NCBI RefSeq assembly: GCF_000023445.1
Contig: NC_012881.1
Location: forward strand, 2,361,501-2,425,500
Source: Maridesulfovibrio salexigens DSM 2638
Lineage (GTDB): Bacteria > Desulfobacterota > Desulfovibrionia > Desulfovibrionales > Desulfovibrionaceae
Length of the DNA: 64,000 nucleotides
Reading direction: 5' to 3'
Part shown: in pieces, positions 35,815 through 58,497 of the stretch
How the letters are laid out: each line of letters starts with the position of its first letter
Numbering within the stretch: the first letter of the stretch is position 1
The notes under the pieces: generated by a model
What the model was told of the DNA's origin: nothing
What the model saw: only the letters and a program-made list of their open reading frames with translations
The model's database searches: none
Position numbers and translations under genes: made by a program

Positions 35815-37722
35815 TTAACTCTGCTTACGCAACCTGCGTTTATCACCAACTCGAATGGTGACCTTTTCCTTATCCATGTATTCAAGCAATGGAATGGAAA
35901 ACTTACGCGACAGACCGACCAAAGCCTTGAAATCCTGCGGGCCAAGCTCTTCATTTTCAGCAAAATAACCCTCAAGAGTCTCCTGCAAGCCATCCACTGC
36001 GGACTTGGCGAAATACATGTCATCCTTGATCCTGACCAGCAGCCCTTCATCCTGCAAAAGCTTGTAAACTGGTGCGGCCTCTTTGAAAACCAGATCAAGA
36101 GGATCAAGCACATCTTTCAAGTTCGGAGGAGTCAATCCACCCTTCTCGTAATTATCCATCAAAGTATCACGCAGTTTCTGTTGATCCGACGCAAGGGAGA
36201 CCTTATGCCCGGGCAAGTGCAGAATCTCCTGAACCGCCACGATTTCATTCTTCTTGAGCAGACGTTCCACAATGGAATGAAACAATTTATCCGGCAATCC
36301 CTTGCCGTAAGTTGATCCGATTTCTCCGCGGGAGACCCCCGGTTTCATGGGTTCTTTTTTATGAAATTCCGCAAGGTGAGCCAGCAGCCCCTGCACCAGA
36401 TTCTCATAATGGGTGCCGGAAACATAGCTGCGGGTTTCCTTATCATATAAGAAAACTTTCTGCTGCCCGCCCATAGTCTGGAGCATCTTCTCCAGCGGCT
36501 TGGAGGCAACATTGCTCAGAATGGAAAGCTCCTGAAAAGTAAGGCCAGCCCTGCCTGCCAAATCAAGCTGGGTCAAGACCAGATCTTCCGGTTCTGCTGC
36601 TATGAGCGACTCCAGACGTTTCACATCATCTGAAAAACGTTTCACCTTACGGCCCAACGGGTTGATAATGCTACCCCCGGCAATGGTGCGCAACGGTGAA
36701 AAGGAACGCAATACAACACGATCACCATAAACCCCGGTCATGAGCTTATCAAAACGGATCTGACAAACGGCCCGTTCACCCTTTTCCAGCTTTTCGCGGT
36801 CAAGAAAGTAAACCTTGGCCATCACTTCCTTGGAACCGTGATGAAAATGGATTTCCTTACGATGCTTCAAACTTTTCGGAGAAGACGGCAGACAGGTCAG
36901 TTCCACGTCCCAAACCTTGGACGGGAAAAGCGTTCCCGGTCTACCCAGCACTTCACCGCGCTCAATCTCTTCTACTTCCAGACCGTGCAGGTTGATGGCG
37001 GTCCTGCGACCAGCCGGAGCAGTCTCTACGGATGCCCCGTGGGACTGCAAGCTACGCACCTTTGTCTCGGTCATTTTAGGGTAAAGAACCACATCGTCAC
37101 CAACGGAAAGCTGACCTGAAATTAATGTCCCGGTTACCACTGTACCGTGCCCTTTCATGGTAAACACACGGTCCACAGGCAGACGAGCCAGATCGGTCCT
37201 GCGTTTTGGAGAAAAACCTTTCATGAATTTCGCAATCTCACCGCGTAATTCATCCAGCCCTTGTCCGGTATGCGAGGAAACAGCATGAATCGGGGCTTCA
37301 GCCAGAAAACTCGGTGCGAGGAATTCCCGAACATCTTCCTGAACCATCTCCATCCAGTCTTCATCAACCATGTCCGCTTTGGTCAGGACAACGAAGCCCT
37401 TCTCAATGCCCAACAAGGTGCAGATTTCCAGATGCTCACGGGTCTGGGGCATTACACCCTCATCAGCGGCAATGACCAACAGCACGAAATCAATACCCGC
37501 TGCCCCGGCAACCATATTTTTCACAAATTTCTCATGGCCCGGAACATCAATGATACTCAGATGTTCATCACCGCCAAGATCAAGGCTGGCAAAGCCCAGT
37601 TCGATGGTGATCCCGCGTTTCTTTTCCTCGGCCAGACGGTCACAGTCCGTTCCGGTCAAAGCCTTAATCAAGCTGGTCTTACCGTGGTCGATATGACCCG
37701 CAGTACCCATAACAACAGGCAT
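35815..37722 (-). CDS. selB: Selenocysteine-specific translation elongation factor
   Basis: 635-residue GTPase that delivers Sec-tRNA to UGA codons marked by a SECIS hairpin. G motifs: GTAGHIDHGKTSL (P-loop), RGITIELGFASL (switch I), DVPGHEKF (switch II) and TKADM. EF-Tu-like beta domains follow, then C-terminal winged-helix repeats (about residues 370-635) that bind the SECIS RNA. ATG 37722 (MPVVMGTAGHIDHGKT) with AAGGAG upstream is chosen over a start 78 bp earlier inside an intergenic repeat. It pairs functionally with selA 1.7 kb upstream, and with a UGA-containing gene at 54527. Confidence 0.95.
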   Translation of the reverse strand: MPVVMGTAGHIDHGKTSLIKALTGTDCDRLAEEKKRGITIELGFASLDLGGDEHLSIIDVPGHEKFVKNMVAGAAGIDFVLLVIAADEGVMPQTREHLEICTLLGIEKGFVVLTKADMVDEDWMEMVQEDVREFLAPSFLAEAPIHAVSSHTGQGLDELRGEIAKFMKGFSPKRRTDLARLPVDRVFTMKGHGTVVTGTLISGQLSVGDDVVLYPKMTETKVRSLQSHGASVETAPAGRRTAINLHGLEVEEIERGEVLGRPGTLFPSKVWDVELTCLPSSPKSLKHRKEIHFHHGSKEVMAKVYFLDREKLEKGERAVCQIRFDKLMTGVYGDRVVLRSFSPLRTIAGGSIINPLGRKVKRFSDDVKRLESLIAAEPEDLVLTQLDLAGRAGLTFQELSILSNVASKPLEKMLQTMGGQQKVFLYDKETRSYVSGTHYENLVQGLLAHLAEFHKKEPMKPGVSRGEIGSTYGKGLPDKLFHSIVERLLKKNEIVAVQEILHLPGHKVSLASDQQKLRDTLMDNYEKGGLTPPNLKDVLDPLDLVFKEAAPVYKLLQDEGLLVRIKDDMYFAKSAVDGLQETLEGYFAENEELGPQDFKALVGLSRKFSIPLLEYMDKEKVTIRVGDKRRLRKQS

Positions 37723-37734
37723 AGTTCTCCTTTT

Positions 37735-37820
37735 GCCTCCGGCGGCTAGGGAAGAGAAACTTTTGCAAAAGTTTCCCTTCCCCAGACCCCATCCCTTCAA
37801 AAACTTTTAGCTTGCTTCGC
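37735..37820. repeat. Palindromic intergenic repeat, copy 1
   Basis: Starts GCCTCCGGCGGC, has a perfect 20-bp palindrome centred on CTTTTGCAAAAG (37756-37775) and ends CTTTTAGCTTGCTTCGC. It has the same architecture as copies at 39321 and 40894 but a diverged palindrome. It lies directly upstream of selB. Confidence 0.75.
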
Positions 37821-39404: not shown

Positions 39405-40802
39405 TTATTCTAAAATTTGATTAATAGCTTCAGCGCAGAGTTTGTACTCTTCGCGTGTGAGTGTTCGTGGATCAAGACAAAATGCATCTTCTTCAATTCG
39501 TCCCACCAGCGGCGGTTCAGTTGAAAGAAGTCCTTCTTTCAATTCTTCAACTGTCACCTTTGCACTCGGAACTACGGTAACAAGAAAAGTCTTTAAGTCC
39601 TGCTCCGGAAATGCTCCGCCGCCTACACGGGAAACCCCCTCACGCACACCGATATTCGCAGTTTCGCCAAGCTCGCGACGTAATGTGCGGGCAAGGGCTT
39701 GAGCCTGTTTTTTAAGATTCTCAGGCTTCTCGGTAATCATGCGCACTGTGGGCACTTCGCGCTTGGCAGTCTCCGGATCAAGGTAAAGGCGCAGGGTCGC
39801 TTCAAGGGCAGCAAGAGTCATCTTATCAATACGAACCGCACGGTTAAGCGGATTCTTCTTGATAGCATCGATATATTTCTTCTTACCGACTATAATCCCC
39901 GCCTGCGGGCCACCGAGCACTTTGTCACCGGAAAATGAAACTACATCCACATCCTCGGCTACAACTTCCTGTACTGTGGGTTCCCGCATCAGGCCGAGGC
40001 CGGAAAAATTGGTCAGGTTACCGCTGCCAAGGTCTTCATAGACCGGAAGGTCATGCTTACGCCCCAGTTCAGCCAATTCGCCACCGGAAACTTCCTTGGT
40101 GAATCCAATAACCCGGAAATTGGAGGTATGCACTTTCATAAGAAGTGCTGTTTCCTCGTTAATGGCATTTTCATAATCGTGCAGATGGGTACGGTTGGTA
40201 GCACCAACTTCACGCAAAAACGCCCCGCTCTTGGTCATGACATCAGGAATACGGAAAGATCCGCCGATCTCAACAAGCTGACCGCGGGAAACAATTGCTT
40301 CGCGACCCTTTGCAAGGGTTTCAAGGGTAATCAATACCGCTGAAGCATTGTTGTTAACCACCAAAGCGGCCTCAGCCCCGGTAATCTCGCAGATCAGCTT
40401 TTCCACGTGACTGTAACGACTACCACGCTCTCCGGTCTTCAGATCAAACTCAAGGTTGGAATAGCAGGCACAAGCCTCAGTCACCGCTTTTACTGCAGAT
40501 TCGGCCAGCAGAGAACGACCGAGGTTAGTATGCACCACCACCCCGGTTCCGTTAAGCACACGCCGGAAATGAGGTTTAGCACCGGCCCGCACATGGCAGG
40601 TCAGGCGCGGGAAAAGCACATCCGGGGAAAGCTGCTTTTCTTCAGTGATAATCCCGCCTTTGATTTCCTCGCGGCAGACATCAAGAAAGCCGTTAACCAG
40701 ATCACGGGAAAGGGTCCTCGGCAGTCCATCAATGACACCCTCTTCTTCAAGACGGGTCAGCACAGAATCAACGGAAGGAAGATATTTAAAAAGATTAGAC
40801 AA
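39405..40802 (-). CDS. selA: L-seryl-tRNA(Sec) selenium transferase
   Basis: 465-residue PLP enzyme converting Ser-tRNA(Sec) to Sec-tRNA(Sec) with selenophosphate. The PLP lysine lies in FSGDKVLGGPQAGIIVG (about residues 287-303). VVHTNLGRSLL, FDLKTGERGSRYSHVE and GATNRTHLHDYENAI are SelA family motifs. The start is TTG 40802 with GGAGG 6 nt upstream, giving a product beginning (M)SNLFKYLPSVD as in the family; an ATG 60 bp upstream has no such signal. It is flanked by inverted 55-bp repeats. Confidence 0.95.
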   Translation of the reverse strand: MSNLFKYLPSVDSVLTRLEEEGVIDGLPRTLSRDLVNGFLDVCREEIKGGIITEEKQLSPDVLFPRLTCHVRAGAKPHFRRVLNGTGVVVHTNLGRSLLAESAVKAVTEACACYSNLEFDLKTGERGSRYSHVEKLICEITGAEAALVVNNNASAVLITLETLAKGREAIVSRGQLVEIGGSFRIPDVMTKSGAFLREVGATNRTHLHDYENAINEETALLMKVHTSNFRVIGFTKEVSGGELAELGRKHDLPVYEDLGSGNLTNFSGLGLMREPTVQEVVAEDVDVVSFSGDKVLGGPQAGIIVGKKKYIDAIKKNPLNRAVRIDKMTLAALEATLRLYLDPETAKREVPTVRMITEKPENLKKQAQALARTLRRELGETANIGVREGVSRVGGGAFPEQDLKTFLVTVVPSAKVTVEELKEGLLSTEPPLVGRIEEDAFCLDPRTLTREEYKLCAEAINQILE

Positions 40803-40893
40803 AAAATGCCTCCGAAATTTAAAGCCACCAACAAAATCCCATCCAACTGATTCGACGGACAACTCATCGAATTTCAGCCAAAATTAAACCAAT

Positions 40894-54085: not shown

Positions 54086-54526
54086 AGGGCAATATCCTTA
54101 TGGAATTACGAGAACACCGATGCCGTAATTATCGTCTGAAACACATTTCAGACCATACATTTTCAGCACAGAAAAATACAAACATTCACAGTCAGACACA
54201 TTTCACAGCCTACTGACATATTACCTTCACCACAATCTCCGAAATGAACAGTAAATACCAGTAAACCCGAAATTTACCCTTGCAATATTAGTGCAACACT
54301 AACGAAGTCGTCTTCGAAAAACCATCCATAAACGCCACCCGCAGCACACTACGACAAAAAGCTGAAATTCACCGCCTCTCGGAGTAAGTACTTGCTTAAA
54401 GAAAAAAGTACGATATTCTTTCAGAACTTCTAAACGAACTCCATCAATTAACCAGATGCCAATGAAAGCTGTAACATTCAAACAAAACAGTTAAAATTAG
54501 AAAAATAAACAATACAGGAGAATAAA
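54086..54526. other. Intergenic region, no gene seen
   Basis: AT-rich stretch between the divergent PEP-synthase-like and selenoprotein genes. It holds short frames without ribosome-binding sites. The promoters must lie here; none stands out. Confidence 0.4.
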
Positions 54527-55174
54527 ATGAGTAACCTCCATGAACAACTGGAAGAAATACAAATTAACGCAAAAGCGAACATCCCCACTGCCACCTTCAA
54601 TACCATGCTTGATGAAACTGCTAAACTTAAAGCTTCAGGGATTGAAGGCAAAGCAGTACAGAACGGCGAAAAAGCACCGGATTTCACCCTCCCCAACCAT
54701 CTGGGGCAGGATATCAATCTTGGCGCAATGCTTAAAGGAGGTCCGGTTGTAGTCAGCTTCTACCGGGGAGGATGGTGACCCTATTGCAACATAGAGCTGG
54801 TAGCTCTGCAAAAAAAACTCCCGGAAATCGAAGCCCTCGGTGCAAAACTCATCTGCATTACTCCTGAAACACCGGACAACACCCTCTCAACAAAAGAGAA
54901 GCAGGGGCTGTCGTTCGAAGTACTCTACGATGCAGGCAACAAGATTGCTGAATCCTACGGACTGGTATTCACCCTCAGTAACGATTTAAAAGAAATCTAT
55001 AGCGGTTTCGGAATAAACTTAGACGTCCAAAACGGCGACGACACTTGGGCTCTACCGTTACCTGCCACTTACGTCATAAAATCTGATGGAACCGTGGCAT
55101 ACCATTTCGCTGATGCGGATTACACCAAACGTCTCGAGCCGGAAGAAATCGTAACAGCCTTGAAAAATCTGTAA
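54527..55174 (+). CDS. Selenocysteine-containing peroxiredoxin-like protein
   Basis: 215 residues if the in-frame TGA at 54776-54778 is read as selenocysteine (residue 84). Both sides continue one thioredoxin-fold AhpC/TSA-like protein: APDFTLPNHLGQDINLG and VVVSFYRGGW before, then Sec-PYCNIELVALQKKLPEIE after, giving the active site FYRGGWUPYCN where homologues have Cys-x-x-Cys. The post-TGA part runs open for 131 codons to TAA. The hairpin after the TGA (54784-54811) has the bacterial SECIS form. AGGAG lies upstream of the ATG; a terminator follows. SelA and SelB are encoded in the window. Conventional gene callers would end the gene at 83 codons. Confidence 0.92.
54784..54811 (+). promoter_or_regulatory. 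SECIS-like hairpin
   Basis: Upper stem AGAGCT/AGCTCT (54793-54798 with 54802-54807) closes the three-base loop GGT; a lower stem TTGC/GCAA (54784-54787 with 54808-54811) is joined by a 5-nt bulge. The apical GGU loop 20 nt after UGA matches the loop recognised by SelB in E. coli fdhF. Confidence 0.75.
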
Positions 55175-55193
55175 TCTTCCCCACAAAAAACAA

Positions 55194-55225
55194 GACGCTG
55201 CCTGTTTATTACAGGCAGCGTCTTT
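55194..55225 (+). terminator. Terminator of the selenoprotein gene
   Basis: Perfect stem GACGCTGCCTGT/ACAGGCAGCGTC with loop TTATT, then TTT. Confidence 0.8.
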
Positions 55226-55367: not shown

Positions 55368-56444
55368 TTATTCAAATGCAGGTTTTACCCCTTGGGCCAC
55401 TCCGGAGAAGTACTTCCGTTTGAAATGCAGGGCGACATTAACCAAGGCTATAAGGACGGGCACTTCCACCAATGGTCCGATTACAGCTGCAAACGCTTCC
55501 CCGGAATTTATTCCGAAAACCGCAATGGCGACCGCAATGGCAAGCTCGAAGTTGTTGGAAGCTGCGGTAAAGCTCAGAGTAGCAGCCTGCTCGTATGTAG
55601 CATCCGCTTTGTATGAAAGGTAAAAGGAAACCAGAAACATAACCAGAAAATAAATTGTCAGGGGAATGGCAATACGAATTACGTCAAAAGGAAGCTCAAT
55701 AACCTTATCACCCTTAAGCGAAAACATGACCAAAATAGTAAAGAGCAGAAATACAAGGGTCAACGGGCTGATGCGGGGAATGAAATCTTTTTCATACCAC
55801 TCCTTGCCCTTTACTCTTATACCGATAAAACGGGTCAGCATTCCGGCGATAAACGGGATTCCCAGATAGATGAAAACACTCTCCGCAATCTGGCCGATGG
55901 AAATATCCACTACAGCACCTTCAAGGCCAAACCATCCGGGCAGGACAGTCAGGAAAACATACGCATATACTGAAAAAAAGATCACCTGAAAGATAGAGTT
56001 AAAAGCAACCAGTCCGGCACAGTATTCGGTATCTCCCTTGGCAAGATCGTTCCAGACAATAACCATCGCAATGCAGCGGGCAAGACCGATCATTATCAAT
56101 CCCACCATATATTCGTGGTATCCGGACAGAAAGGTAATCGCTAAAGCAAACATGAGCACTGGGCCGATAATCCAGTTCTGAGCAAGGGAGAGCAAAAGCA
56201 CTTTATAGTTTCTGAAAACCTTACCCAGCTCTTCATATTTTACCTTCGCCAAAGGCGGATACATCATCAGGATCAGCCCGATAGCAATGGGGATATTAGT
56301 GGTTCCCACCTGAAAAGAATTAATAACATCCTTCATTGCCGGATAGAAATATCCACACCCCACCCCGACAAACATTGCCAGAAAAATCCACAAGGTCAGA
56401 TACCGATCCAGAAAAGATAACTTTTTAATAGTTGACTCAGCCAT
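55368..56444 (-). CDS. acr3: ACR3-family arsenite efflux permease
   Basis: 358-residue inner-membrane protein with ten hydrophobic segments. The family's essential Cys lies in [20 protein letters not shown] (about residue 128), and [18 protein letters not shown] and [18 protein letters not shown] are typical. It exports arsenite, normally without an ATPase. GGAG precedes ATG 56444. The promoter overlaps a perfect palindrome, consistent with ArsR repression. arsR lies upstream on the same strand but is separated by a terminator. Confidence 0.93.
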
Positions 56445-56511
56445 ATTAACTCCAATTGATAATGTTTAAGCACCCATAATTTAGTCATGAAAAAGCATTG
56501 GACCTTGGCGC

Positions 56512-56539
56512 AACATATCCGCATATGCGGATATGTCAA
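56512..56539 (-). promoter_or_regulatory. acr3 promoter with palindromic operator
   Basis: Minus-strand TTGACA (56539-56534), 16-nt spacer, TATGTT (56517-56512). A perfect 24-bp palindrome (56513-56536, half ACATATCCGCAT) occupies the spacer and parts of both boxes, ideal for blocking polymerase; ArsR is the obvious ligand. Confidence 0.8.
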
Positions 56540-56670
56540 CACATAGAAATTTAATCATCTAAAAGTATGAGAACACGAAAAAGAAATGTGATGGATAATA
56601 ACTGATCAGGAGAAAGGGACCATTGTCATACTAATATGCACGACCAAAGGCCTGAAAAGGGAATGGACAA

Positions 56671-56698
56671 AAAAAGGCCGTTTCAAAAAAAACGGCCT
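56671..56698 (-). terminator. Terminator of arsR
   Basis: Minus-strand stem AGGCCGTTT/AAACGGCCT with a short A/T loop followed by TTTTTTT. Confidence 0.8.
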
Positions 56699-56703
56699 CG
56701 TAA

Positions 56704-57048
56704 TTAACAACTTTCGGTTACCTTGGTTTCAAGATAGCTGCACAAACGCTTATAATCCTCTTCGGCTTGGGGGACTTGCTGGAGACCTTCACGCAGAACC
56801 TCCAAAACACGACGCTGAATTGAATCTTCCGGTTCGGCCAGACTGTAATAAACCCACTTTCCTCTTCTTACGCCGGTCACCCATCCTGAATTTTTCAAGA
56901 AAGACATGTGACGGGAAACCTTGGATTGCGGAAGATCTAAACCTTCCATCAAATCACAAACGCACAATTCTCCACGCTCAAGCAAACGGATGACCCGTAA
57001 TCGGGTTGGATCAGAGAGGGCTTTCAAACATTCTGCTATTTTTTCCAT
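56704..57048 (-). CDS. arsR: ArsR-family transcriptional repressor
   Basis: 114-residue winged-helix regulator. The metal site ELCVCDLM (about residues 27-34) is the As(III)-binding motif of ArsR; SKVSRHMSFLKNSGWV is the DNA-recognition region, and GKWVYYSLAEPED the wing. ATG 57048 begins the usual MEKIAECLKALSDPTRLR, but no Shine-Dalgarno is present and the promoter places the transcript start at about the ATG, so it may be leaderless. It likely represses acr3 and itself, and perhaps the thioredoxin-ccdA genes upstream. Confidence 0.93.
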   Translation of the reverse strand: MEKIAECLKALSDPTRLRVIRLLERGELCVCDLMEGLDLPQSKVSRHMSFLKNSGWVTGVRRGKWVYYSLAEPEDSIQRRVLEVLREGLQQVPQAEEDYKRLCSYLETKVTESC

Positions 57049-57054
57049 ACCGAA

Positions 57055-57082
57055 GTTTTATGCGCTTACACAAATATGTCAA
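57055..57082 (-). promoter_or_regulatory. Candidate arsR promoter
   Basis: Minus-strand TTGACA (57082-57077), 16-nt spacer, TAAAAC (57060-57055). It shares GTTGACATAT with the acr3 promoter, so one operator half-site is conserved. Confidence 0.55.
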
Positions 57083-57118
57083 CATACATACAGCTAACAA
57101 TTTATCCAAAAATAAAGC

Positions 57119-57817
57119 TCATAAAACAGGACGAATCACAAAATACAAACCCATCAATCCGACAGTTACCCCGGCCAGCTTGCGAAAAACACTACCACCC
57201 TGCTGCCAACTGCTGCTTTCAATCATACGTCTGACCAAAGCAGTGGAACTCCCCGCAACAGCTATGGGTAGGCAATGACCTATTCCGAAGAGAACTATAA
57301 GCAGCATTCCGACTGCAACATCGCCCTGCACGGTAATAATCGCCAGAATAGGGGCAACAAAACCAAAAGTGCATGAACCGGACAGGATACCATATGCCAA
57401 ACCAAGTACAAAAGCACCGCTGTATCCTTTCAACTTAAGATGCCCCATCAAGCTGCCGGATATGGAACATGTTGCTAGACCAAGCATATCCGCAGCTACC
57501 CAAAGCAGGATAAGCCCAACCAAAACCGTCCACCAAGGCCCAACATCGCCCATCATCCGGCCCAAAAAGGCACAGGTAATACCGATCAGCGCGATGGTTA
57601 TGAACAGTCCAAGAGTAAACAATCCGGCATAAACCGAGGCCCTGCGCCCTTGCACAAGCTCGTTCTGCCCGCCCACGTAGCCGACAATAAGTGGAATTGA
57701 GGCCAGATGGCATGGTGAAAACAAAACACTCACCATGCCCCAAAGAAGACAGCCGAGCTCAGCCCAAGCCGTGCCGCTTACAATCCAGCTGTTAATGGCA
57801 ACCAGAAACTGATCCAT
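57119..57817 (-). CDS. CcdA-family thiol-disulfide electron carrier
   Basis: 232-residue membrane protein with six hydrophobic segments that passes electrons from cytoplasmic thioredoxin to periplasmic thiols. The redox cysteines are in FSPCHLASIP (TM1) and GSCTFGFVAP (TM4), the CcdA/DsbD-beta pair. It starts 4 bp after the thioredoxin lipoprotein stop, a natural partner on the periplasmic side. It ends the three-gene operon started at 58497. Confidence 0.9.
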   Translation of the reverse strand: MDQFLVAINSWIVSGTAWAELGCLLWGMVSVLFSPCHLASIPLIVGYVGGQNELVQGRRASVYAGLFTLGLFITIALIGITCAFLGRMMGDVGPWWTVLVGLILLWVAADMLGLATCSISGSLMGHLKLKGYSGAFVLGLAYGILSGSCTFGFVAPILAIITVQGDVAVGMLLIVLFGIGHCLPIAVAGSSTALVRRMIESSSWQQGGSVFRKLAGVTVGLMGLYFVIRPVL

Positions 57818-57821
57818 ATCC

Positions 57822-58247
57822 TTACCGGACGCCCAGCTCTTTCAACTTCGCCACAATGCTCTTCTTATCCAAAAAACCTACATGGCGATATTGTTCCTTA
57901 CCATCAGCATCATAGAATATCTGCGTTGGAATAGAACGGATATTGTATTTAGCCGCCTCTTCGCGATATTCCCATACGTCAATGAAAGCAATTGCGGCCC
58001 GCCCATCATACTCCTTGGACAATTCCTCAATCACCGGAGTCATCATTTTACAGGGCACACAGGCGTGGGCACCGATATCGACCATAGTTACCATGCCGGT
58101 AATGGGAAGCTCATGCGGTTTACCTGAAATTAGATCGGAAGCTGCGATTCCTGCCGTTTCACGGTCCTCAGCATCTGCGCTGCATGCGCCAAGGCACATT
58201 CCCAGAACCAGCAGACAACCTATCAAAACAAAAATTCTCTTAGGCAT
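57822..58247 (-). CDS. Thioredoxin-fold lipoprotein
   Basis: 141-residue protein with a lipoprotein signal (VLGMCLGAC; probable lipobox Cys about residue 22) and a thioredoxin domain whose active site is ACVPCKMMTPVIEEL (about 62-76); the cis-proline is in IRSIPTQIFYD. It probably works in the periplasm, reduced by the CcdA protein encoded directly downstream. GGAG precedes ATG 58247. Confidence 0.9.
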   Translation of the reverse strand: MPKRIFVLIGCLLVLGMCLGACSADAEDRETAGIAASDLISGKPHELPITGMVTMVDIGAHACVPCKMMTPVIEELSKEYDGRAAIAFIDVWEYREEAAKYNIRSIPTQIFYDADGKEQYRHVGFLDKKSIVAKLKELGVR

Positions 58248-58266
58248 GCTTACTCCTCAAGCTTGA

Positions 58267-58497
58267 TTATTTCAGCCACTTGAGCACTTCATTCTTACTG
58301 GGCACCTTGCCCATAACCTTTACTTCACCATCTATAGCAACTGCAGGAGTGGAAAAAACACCCATCATGGCAATTTCCTGAAAATCGCTGATTTTTACGA
58401 CTTCAGCCTGAATCCCACTTTCTGCAACCGCTTCCTGTACAATCTTTTCCGCCTTGGCACACTTGGGACAACCGGGTCCGAGAACTTGAATTTTCAT
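58267..58497 (-). CDS. Small thioredoxin-like protein (CPKC type)
   Basis: 76-residue cytosolic thioredoxin/glutaredoxin-like protein: MKIQVLGPGCPKCAKAEKIV with active site CPKC (about residues 10-13) and cis-proline in VFSTPAVAIDG. Such redox-active disulfide proteins often accompany arsenic or CcdA genes. AGGAG precedes ATG 58497. It is first in a three-gene operon with the lipoprotein and ccdA. Confidence 0.9.
   Translation of the reverse strand: MKIQVLGPGCPKCAKAEKIVQEAVAESGIQAEVVKISDFQEIAMMGVFSTPAVAIDGEVKVMGKVPSKNEVLKWLK

Follow-up and report, generated by a model that had tools for sequence, protein, structure and literature searches.

A candidate UxxC selenoprotein of the AhpC/TSA family, with selenocysteine predicted at an in-frame UGA, in Maridesulfovibrio salexigens

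The window analyzed here is a stretch of 64,000 nucleotides of the genome of M. salexigens DSM 2638 (NC_012881.1, positions 2,361,501 to 2,425,500). It contains a gene of the AhpC-TSA family (Table 1), the frame of which runs from an ATG at 54527 to an in-frame TGA at 54776-54778, continues for 131 sense codons and ends at a TAA at 55172-55174, exactly as described in the initial annotation. Under translation table 11, only the 83 codons ahead of the TGA are read, resulting in an 83-aa ORF; standard annotation would indeed shorten the gene, as had been anticipated. When the TGA is translated as U, a protein of 215 residues is obtained with U84 in the sequence YRGGWUPYC and with a Pfam match to AhpC-TSA (PF00578; E 1.2e-30). 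The genes flanking the selenoprotein gene on both sides are located on the minus strand, and a promoter scan found no plus-strand promoter upstream of it. A search of the window with Rfam at gathering thresholds yielded four tRNAs and nothing else.

Table 1. Features of the candidate selenoprotein locus and of the selenocysteine machinery in the window (positions are those of the window).
Feature	Position	Strand	Evidence or remark
selB, Sec-specific elongation factor	35815..37800	-	TIGR00475, 384.6 bits; SelB winged helices
selA, Sec synthase	39405..40862	-	TIGR00474, 615 bits
AGGAG, ribosome-binding-site-like	54517..54521	+	5 nt 5' of ATG; by eye
Predicted selenoprotein gene, AhpC-TSA family	54527..55174	+	215 codons with UGA read as Sec84; PF00578 E 1.2e-30; pLDDT 96.5
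In-frame UGA, predicted Sec84 of UxxC motif	54776..54778	+	TGA in 30/113, Cys codon in 83/113 strong relatives
Bacterial SECIS-like hairpin, GGU loop 54799-54801	54784..54811	+	RNAfold, recoding and family controls
Cys87 codon, second half of UxxC	54785..54787	+	Cys in 113/113; aligns with Cys of SxxC in PrxQ 2cx3
14-bp inverted repeat between selenoprotein gene and convergent acr3	55192..55224	.	Terminator-like on - strand only (scan)

On the minus strand at 55368-58497, an arsenic-type cluster is found with ACR3 (TIGR00832, 460 bits), an ArsR-family regulator and a DsbD_TM protein. It also contains a thioredoxin, in which the motif HACVPC is present and the start is lipobox-like as judged by eye, as well as a 76-aa frame encoding GPGCPKC (58267-58497). 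An operon was considered by comparing the frames of at least 110 aa between 44 and 64 kb of the window (20 kb) by BLASTP with each of three congeneric regions of 13-14 kb, and was rejected: only the gene itself and one frame of L158 (29-30%) were matched.

Relatives of the gene were collected from three sources. Of 17 genomes of the genus, 16 contained a match at E 0.001 and three, including the own genome, a match better than 1e-50; in a phylum sample of 395 genomes, 29 genomes matched at E 1e-20, at 31 places; and a set of genome contigs provided 138 confirmed stretches, the best 80 of which were kept. These 80 Cys loci are a biased sample, as Cys is fixed in one search pattern and the search tool handles stop-containing genes less well, and their proportion is therefore uninformative on the frequency of selenocysteine (Sec). 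Altogether, 125 loci match at E 1e-5, of which 113 score above 100 bits to the query. The other 12, several of which contain a TxxU-like motif (DFTFVUATE), score at most 48.5 bits and were excluded from the site count.

The 113 strong members were selected independently of the motif; in them, the column of residue 84 holds a TGA 30 times, a Cys codon 83 times and no other residue. The in-frame UGA is thus aligned with a conserved Cys/Sec position of the homologues, as is required of a selenoprotein gene. This agrees with the initial placement of the UGA at the first active-site Cys expected in the sequence GGWUPYC; homologues with neither Cys nor Sec at this site, which had been named as counter-evidence, were not encountered among the 113. 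Besides Cys/Sec84, the residues R80, W83, C87, L91, D135, and R202 are invariant in all strong members, and among 75 aligned members, columns 84 and 87 are the only ones in which Cys is found in eight or more. The 30 TGA loci comprise the window gene, the congeneric locus L003, and 28 further loci of the phylum sample, of which 27 are intact genes and one, L153, is a fragment. L153 also contains a second TGA and was excluded from the hairpin counts, leaving 29 TGA genes. These span 15 family codes, with eight genes in one close clade (f28) and five in f56, and do not represent 29 independent events. In the phylum sample, 28 of the 31 places, own gene included, contain exactly one in-frame TGA, two lack a stop, and one is a fragment with two TGAs and a TAA. 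This fragment (L153, from G270), with one TGA at the site, is possibly a decayed copy. Another locus, L154 in G402, is a second UGA paralogue within one genome and has the variant motif WUVFC in place of WUPYC.

An AlphaFold model of the 215-residue protein, based on the 75-row alignment (A1), has a mean pLDDT of 96.5 and a pTM of 0.93, and the position of the UGA is spanned within one domain. Residue 84 lies past strand 74-78 and just ahead of helix 85-103. Among the 50 PDB matches listed by Foldseek (E 2e-14 to 4e-11), both Bcp/PrxQ/AhpE and ResA are found, and the best PDB matches by sequence are peroxiredoxins (PrxQ/Bcp). In an HMMER alignment with the Aeropyrum PrxQ 2cx3, U84 falls on the Ser of the SxxC motif and C87 on its Cys. 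Thus, Sec84 would occupy the Thr/Ser position of peroxiredoxins, and Cys87 occupies the position of their peroxidatic Cys. The motif Pxxx(T/S)xxCP is reported to be present in 99.3% of 38,739 peroxiredoxins (PMC5302317). In all 113 strong members, R80 replaces the Pro and U/C84 the Thr/Ser of Pxxx(T/S)xxC. Furthermore, the cis-Pro position of thioredoxins is described as Pro in these proteins and as Arg in peroxiredoxins (PMC2757866). P179 is aligned with Arg122 of 2cx3 in a weak tail of the HMMER alignment (6.0 bits), and in the column so placed, P is found 86 times, A 13 times, S 11 times, T twice, V once, and R in none of the 113 members; two residues further, at column 181, Arg is present in 45 of the 113. 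By this weak tail alignment, the Arg of canonical peroxiredoxins is absent from column 179.

Since neither the catalytic motif nor the Arg column of peroxiredoxins is found, the protein is more likely to act as a UxxC thiol:disulfide oxidoreductase than as a classical peroxidase, and we consider the former role rather likely. With a PF00578 domain and a UxxC motif, the protein belongs to the UxxC subclass under the naming rule of PMC9312934. It could, with a lower probability that leaves the proposal doubtful, work as a true peroxidase, in which either Cys87, at the peroxidatic position, or Sec84 attacks the peroxide and the other residue resolves. The AhpC-TSA match, the PrxQ/Bcp proteins as best PDB sequence matches, the alignment of C87 with the Cys of SxxC, and the Arg at column 181 in 45 of 113 members would fit such an activity, whereas the invariant R80 and U/C84 in place of Pro and Thr/Ser, and the lack of any Arg in the column aligned with the peroxiredoxin Arg, argue against it. 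The description of the protein as peroxiredoxin-like in the initial annotation therefore holds for its sequence family (AhpC/TSA), but not for the catalytic motif.

Bacterial SECIS elements are hairpins whose first two loop bases include a G, the loop being located about 16-37 nt after the UGA. The minimum-energy fold predicted by RNAfold for the 47 nt after the UGA is exactly the hairpin at 54784-54811, in which two stems of 5 bp, separated by a 5-nt bulge on the 5' side, carry the GGU loop at 54799-54801; both the loop bases and the distance from the UGA agree with these properties. The hairpin proposed initially from its resemblance to SECIS elements was thus refolded identically. For comparison between genes, a hairpin score was defined as the number of contiguous stem pairs plus the number of GC pairs, for loops of 3-14 nt with a G in the first two bases and starting 17-37 nt past the first base of the UGA. 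The window gene scores 10, a value reached by 1.2% of 1000 synonymous recodings; its folding energy is reached by 6.6% of the recodings (0.066), which is not significant. In the family, scores of at least 10 are found in 26 of 29 UGA genes vs. 7 of 83 Cys genes, the remaining three UGA genes scoring 8, 8, and 9. The mean score of the UGA genes is 11.8, as compared with 6.5 in synonymous shuffles, and that of the Cys genes 4.3, as compared with 3.9. The two classes differ with a Mann-Whitney p of 1e-14, which is overstated because the rows are related. Tested individually against synonymous recoding, p is <0.05 for 16 of the 29 TGA genes, as compared with 4 of the 83 Cys genes.

When the same genes were scored at 15 further offsets, values of at least 10 were reached by 0-14 of the 29 TGA genes and by 1-23 of up to 83 Cys genes. 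The largest off-site excesses in the TGA genes were found at -60 nt (14/29 vs. 16/82) and at +240 nt (11/29 vs. 7/83), and given these excesses, part of the difference between the classes may be general. Two loop types are common, i.e., GGN at columns 24-26 and GUCAU or GUCGU at columns 27-31, numbered from the first base of the UGA. In the 21 UGA genes with a GGN loop, 96.6% of the stem cells pair, and none of the seven pairs has changed on both sides, a count that omits 8 of the 29 UGA genes (L126-L130, L132, L152, and L154). The hairpin stretch is constrained by the conserved protein that it encodes.

The genes for Sec incorporation are present. The presence of selA and selB, noted initially, was substantiated by matches to TIGR00474 and TIGR00475 within the window. 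Elsewhere in the own genome, a tRNA-Sec is located at C1 1968624-1968713 (82.5 bits, anticodon TCA), and selD at C1 696728-697651 (L159); selA, selB, selC, and selD are thus all present in this genome. The selD gene has one in-frame TGA, and its product, selenophosphate synthetase, is probably a selenoprotein itself. In related genomes, selA scores over the cut-off in 43 of 44, and tRNA-Sec is likewise found in 43 of 44. The exception, G371 (82% complete), contains a UGA gene, and neither selA nor tRNA-Sec was found in it. A second selenoprotein candidate of the own genome (G000) lies at about 1008.4-1009.2 kb of C1 (L157:4389-5210); it matches AhpC-TSA and 1-cysPrx_C and has a TxxU motif (DFTFVUATE), and its TGA motif is also present in the congeneric loci L011, L013, L019, L020, and L023.

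Because the site column contains only TGA and Cys codons, hairpins are enriched after the UGA, and selA, selB, selD, and tRNA-Sec are all encoded in the genome, the gene very probably encodes a selenoprotein in which the UGA is read as Sec at residue 84. The initial reading of the locus is thereby supported. Consistently, the frame after the UGA is intact in L003 and in 27 other UGA relatives, and the broken downstream frame in close relatives that had been considered as an argument against this reading was not encountered among them. The window gene is 64% identical to L003 overall, with an identity of 0.593 over the 81 codons 5' of the UGA and of 0.672 over the 131 codons 3' of it; pS is 0.84 before and 0.77 after the UGA, with synonymous sites saturated, and pN is 0.27 and 0.24, respectively. 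Decoding of the UGA as a different amino acid, or a main role for it as a switch yielding the 83-aa fragment, is very unlikely: as a Sec UGA in bacteria competes with termination, some fragment is likely to be formed at low selenium, but in all 83 strong relatives that have no UGA this position is Cys, and neither Cys87 nor most of the strands are included in the fragment. Still less credible is a true stop, a mutation or a sequencing error, with a dead remnant after it, which would accord with the 83-aa ORF of table 11, but not with the TGA at the same codon in 28 other intact genes, a part after the UGA that is no less conserved than the part before, and the location of Cys87 and most of the modeled fold after the TGA.

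With Sec at residue 84 as the preferred reading, the observed hairpin and machinery genes suggest that SelB with Sec-tRNA would bind the hairpin just 3' of the UGA. Insertion of Sec at residue 84 would then result in a 215-aa protein with a thioredoxin fold, belonging to the AhpC/TSA clan. Sec84 and Cys87 would constitute a UxxC redox center, positioned at the N-terminus of a helix in the model. Most likely, Sec84 would be the attacking residue, as in thioredoxin-type catalysis, and Cys87 would resolve via a selenenylsulfide, the reaction being disulfide reduction.

The Sec and Cys forms of the family interleave. On a quick tree of 111 rows (L086 was omitted, being too short), at least seven changes between them are needed, three of which are forced by the strongly supported branches alone; a tree of 33 hand-chosen rows needs five changes, of which three are forced. 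Within the genus, the latter tree gives the order (window Sec,(L003 Sec, L004 Cys)), with a support of 94/86, not starred. At L004, a locus of genome G004, the site contains TGC, and differences break the stem; the hairpin score is 6, which is reached by 44% of recodings. G004 retains selA and tRNA-Sec. The most economical interpretation of L004, by one step, is a probable Sec-to-Cys change, for which the support is moderate. G004 has two Cys paralogues (L004:1501-2145 and L018:1492-2136), one within the clade of the window gene (59% to the window) and the other grouping with a sequence of Ancylomarina (Bacteroidota), which suggests that they were acquired separately. The gene is present in only three of the 17 genus genomes, own genome included (match better than 1e-50), and the neighbors of the window gene were not detected next to L003 or L004; thus, the gene looks as if it has often been gained or lost in the genus. 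Tentatively, and with a low probability, the family may be a bridge between thioredoxin-type and peroxiredoxin-type catalysis, with Sec at the Thr/Ser position of peroxiredoxins beside an intact Cys at the peroxidatic position, and with repeated Sec/Cys switching, of which the Sec-to-Cys change within one genus, accompanied by loss of the SECIS element, would be a recent case.

The standard code yields an 83-aa fragment without Cys87, and reading the UGA as Sec would add a selenoenzyme to the genome. The window gene and L003 vs. L004 offer close Sec and Cys relatives with which the contribution of selenium to a UxxC enzyme can be examined.

Several known systems resemble the window protein. 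PrxU, a Sec-containing peroxiredoxin with a TxxU motif, is also a member of the AhpC-TSA family, and the own genome likewise encodes a TxxU protein (L157:4389-5210). However, PrxU has its Sec at the peroxidatic position, whereas that predicted in the window protein is located three residues earlier, and the window protein scores 35.7 bits with the PrxU model NF040737, vs. a cut-off of 270. ResA-type oxidoreductases share a CxxC-type dyad and a similar fold with it (Foldseek E about 1e-12), but their identity to the window protein is about 16-23%, and the ResA model gives 46.2 bits vs. a cut-off of 170. The name "peroxiredoxin-like family protein", under which Cys homologues are annotated, is carried by eight of the 15 plasmid matches listed, all below 60% identity. 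The Cys-type relatives from the genus, phylum and genome-contig sets, as distinct from these plasmid matches, mostly lack the hairpin, unlike the window gene. The peroxiredoxin-like selenoproteins of cd02970 are described with a UxxS motif (PMC13188914), which is not found in the window protein with its UxxC. A literature search found no paper joining Maridesulfovibrio with selenocysteine, and among the titles retrieved for Desulfovibrio salexigens and selenoprotein, none was on the window gene.

The closest counterparts are the Prx-like thiol:disulfide oxidoreductase selenoproteins. PMC1794560 lists them in several Deltaproteobacteria, with eight genes, three Cys-to-Sec events and, in that list, no Sec-to-Cys events; the initial statement that Sec-containing Prx-like proteins are a known class in these bacteria is borne out by this source. 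An entry of the same name in PMC5029168 gives 28 and 32, which we take as the numbers of organisms and genes. Proteins with PF00578 and UxxC or UxxU are listed among predicted selenoproteins (PMC13188914, PMC9312934), "Prx-like 1" denotes PF00578 with UxxC (PMC2398784), and Cys homologues of the UxxC/UxxU selenoproteins are known (PMC13188914, PMC9312934, PMC1794560, PMC1088965). Compared by the published descriptions, these proteins share PF00578 and UxxC with the window protein, and no difference was found. As judged from its sequence, the window gene matches this class, which is already known; it leaves the known picture of bacterial selenoproteins unchanged, as a further example that is well supported but ordinary.
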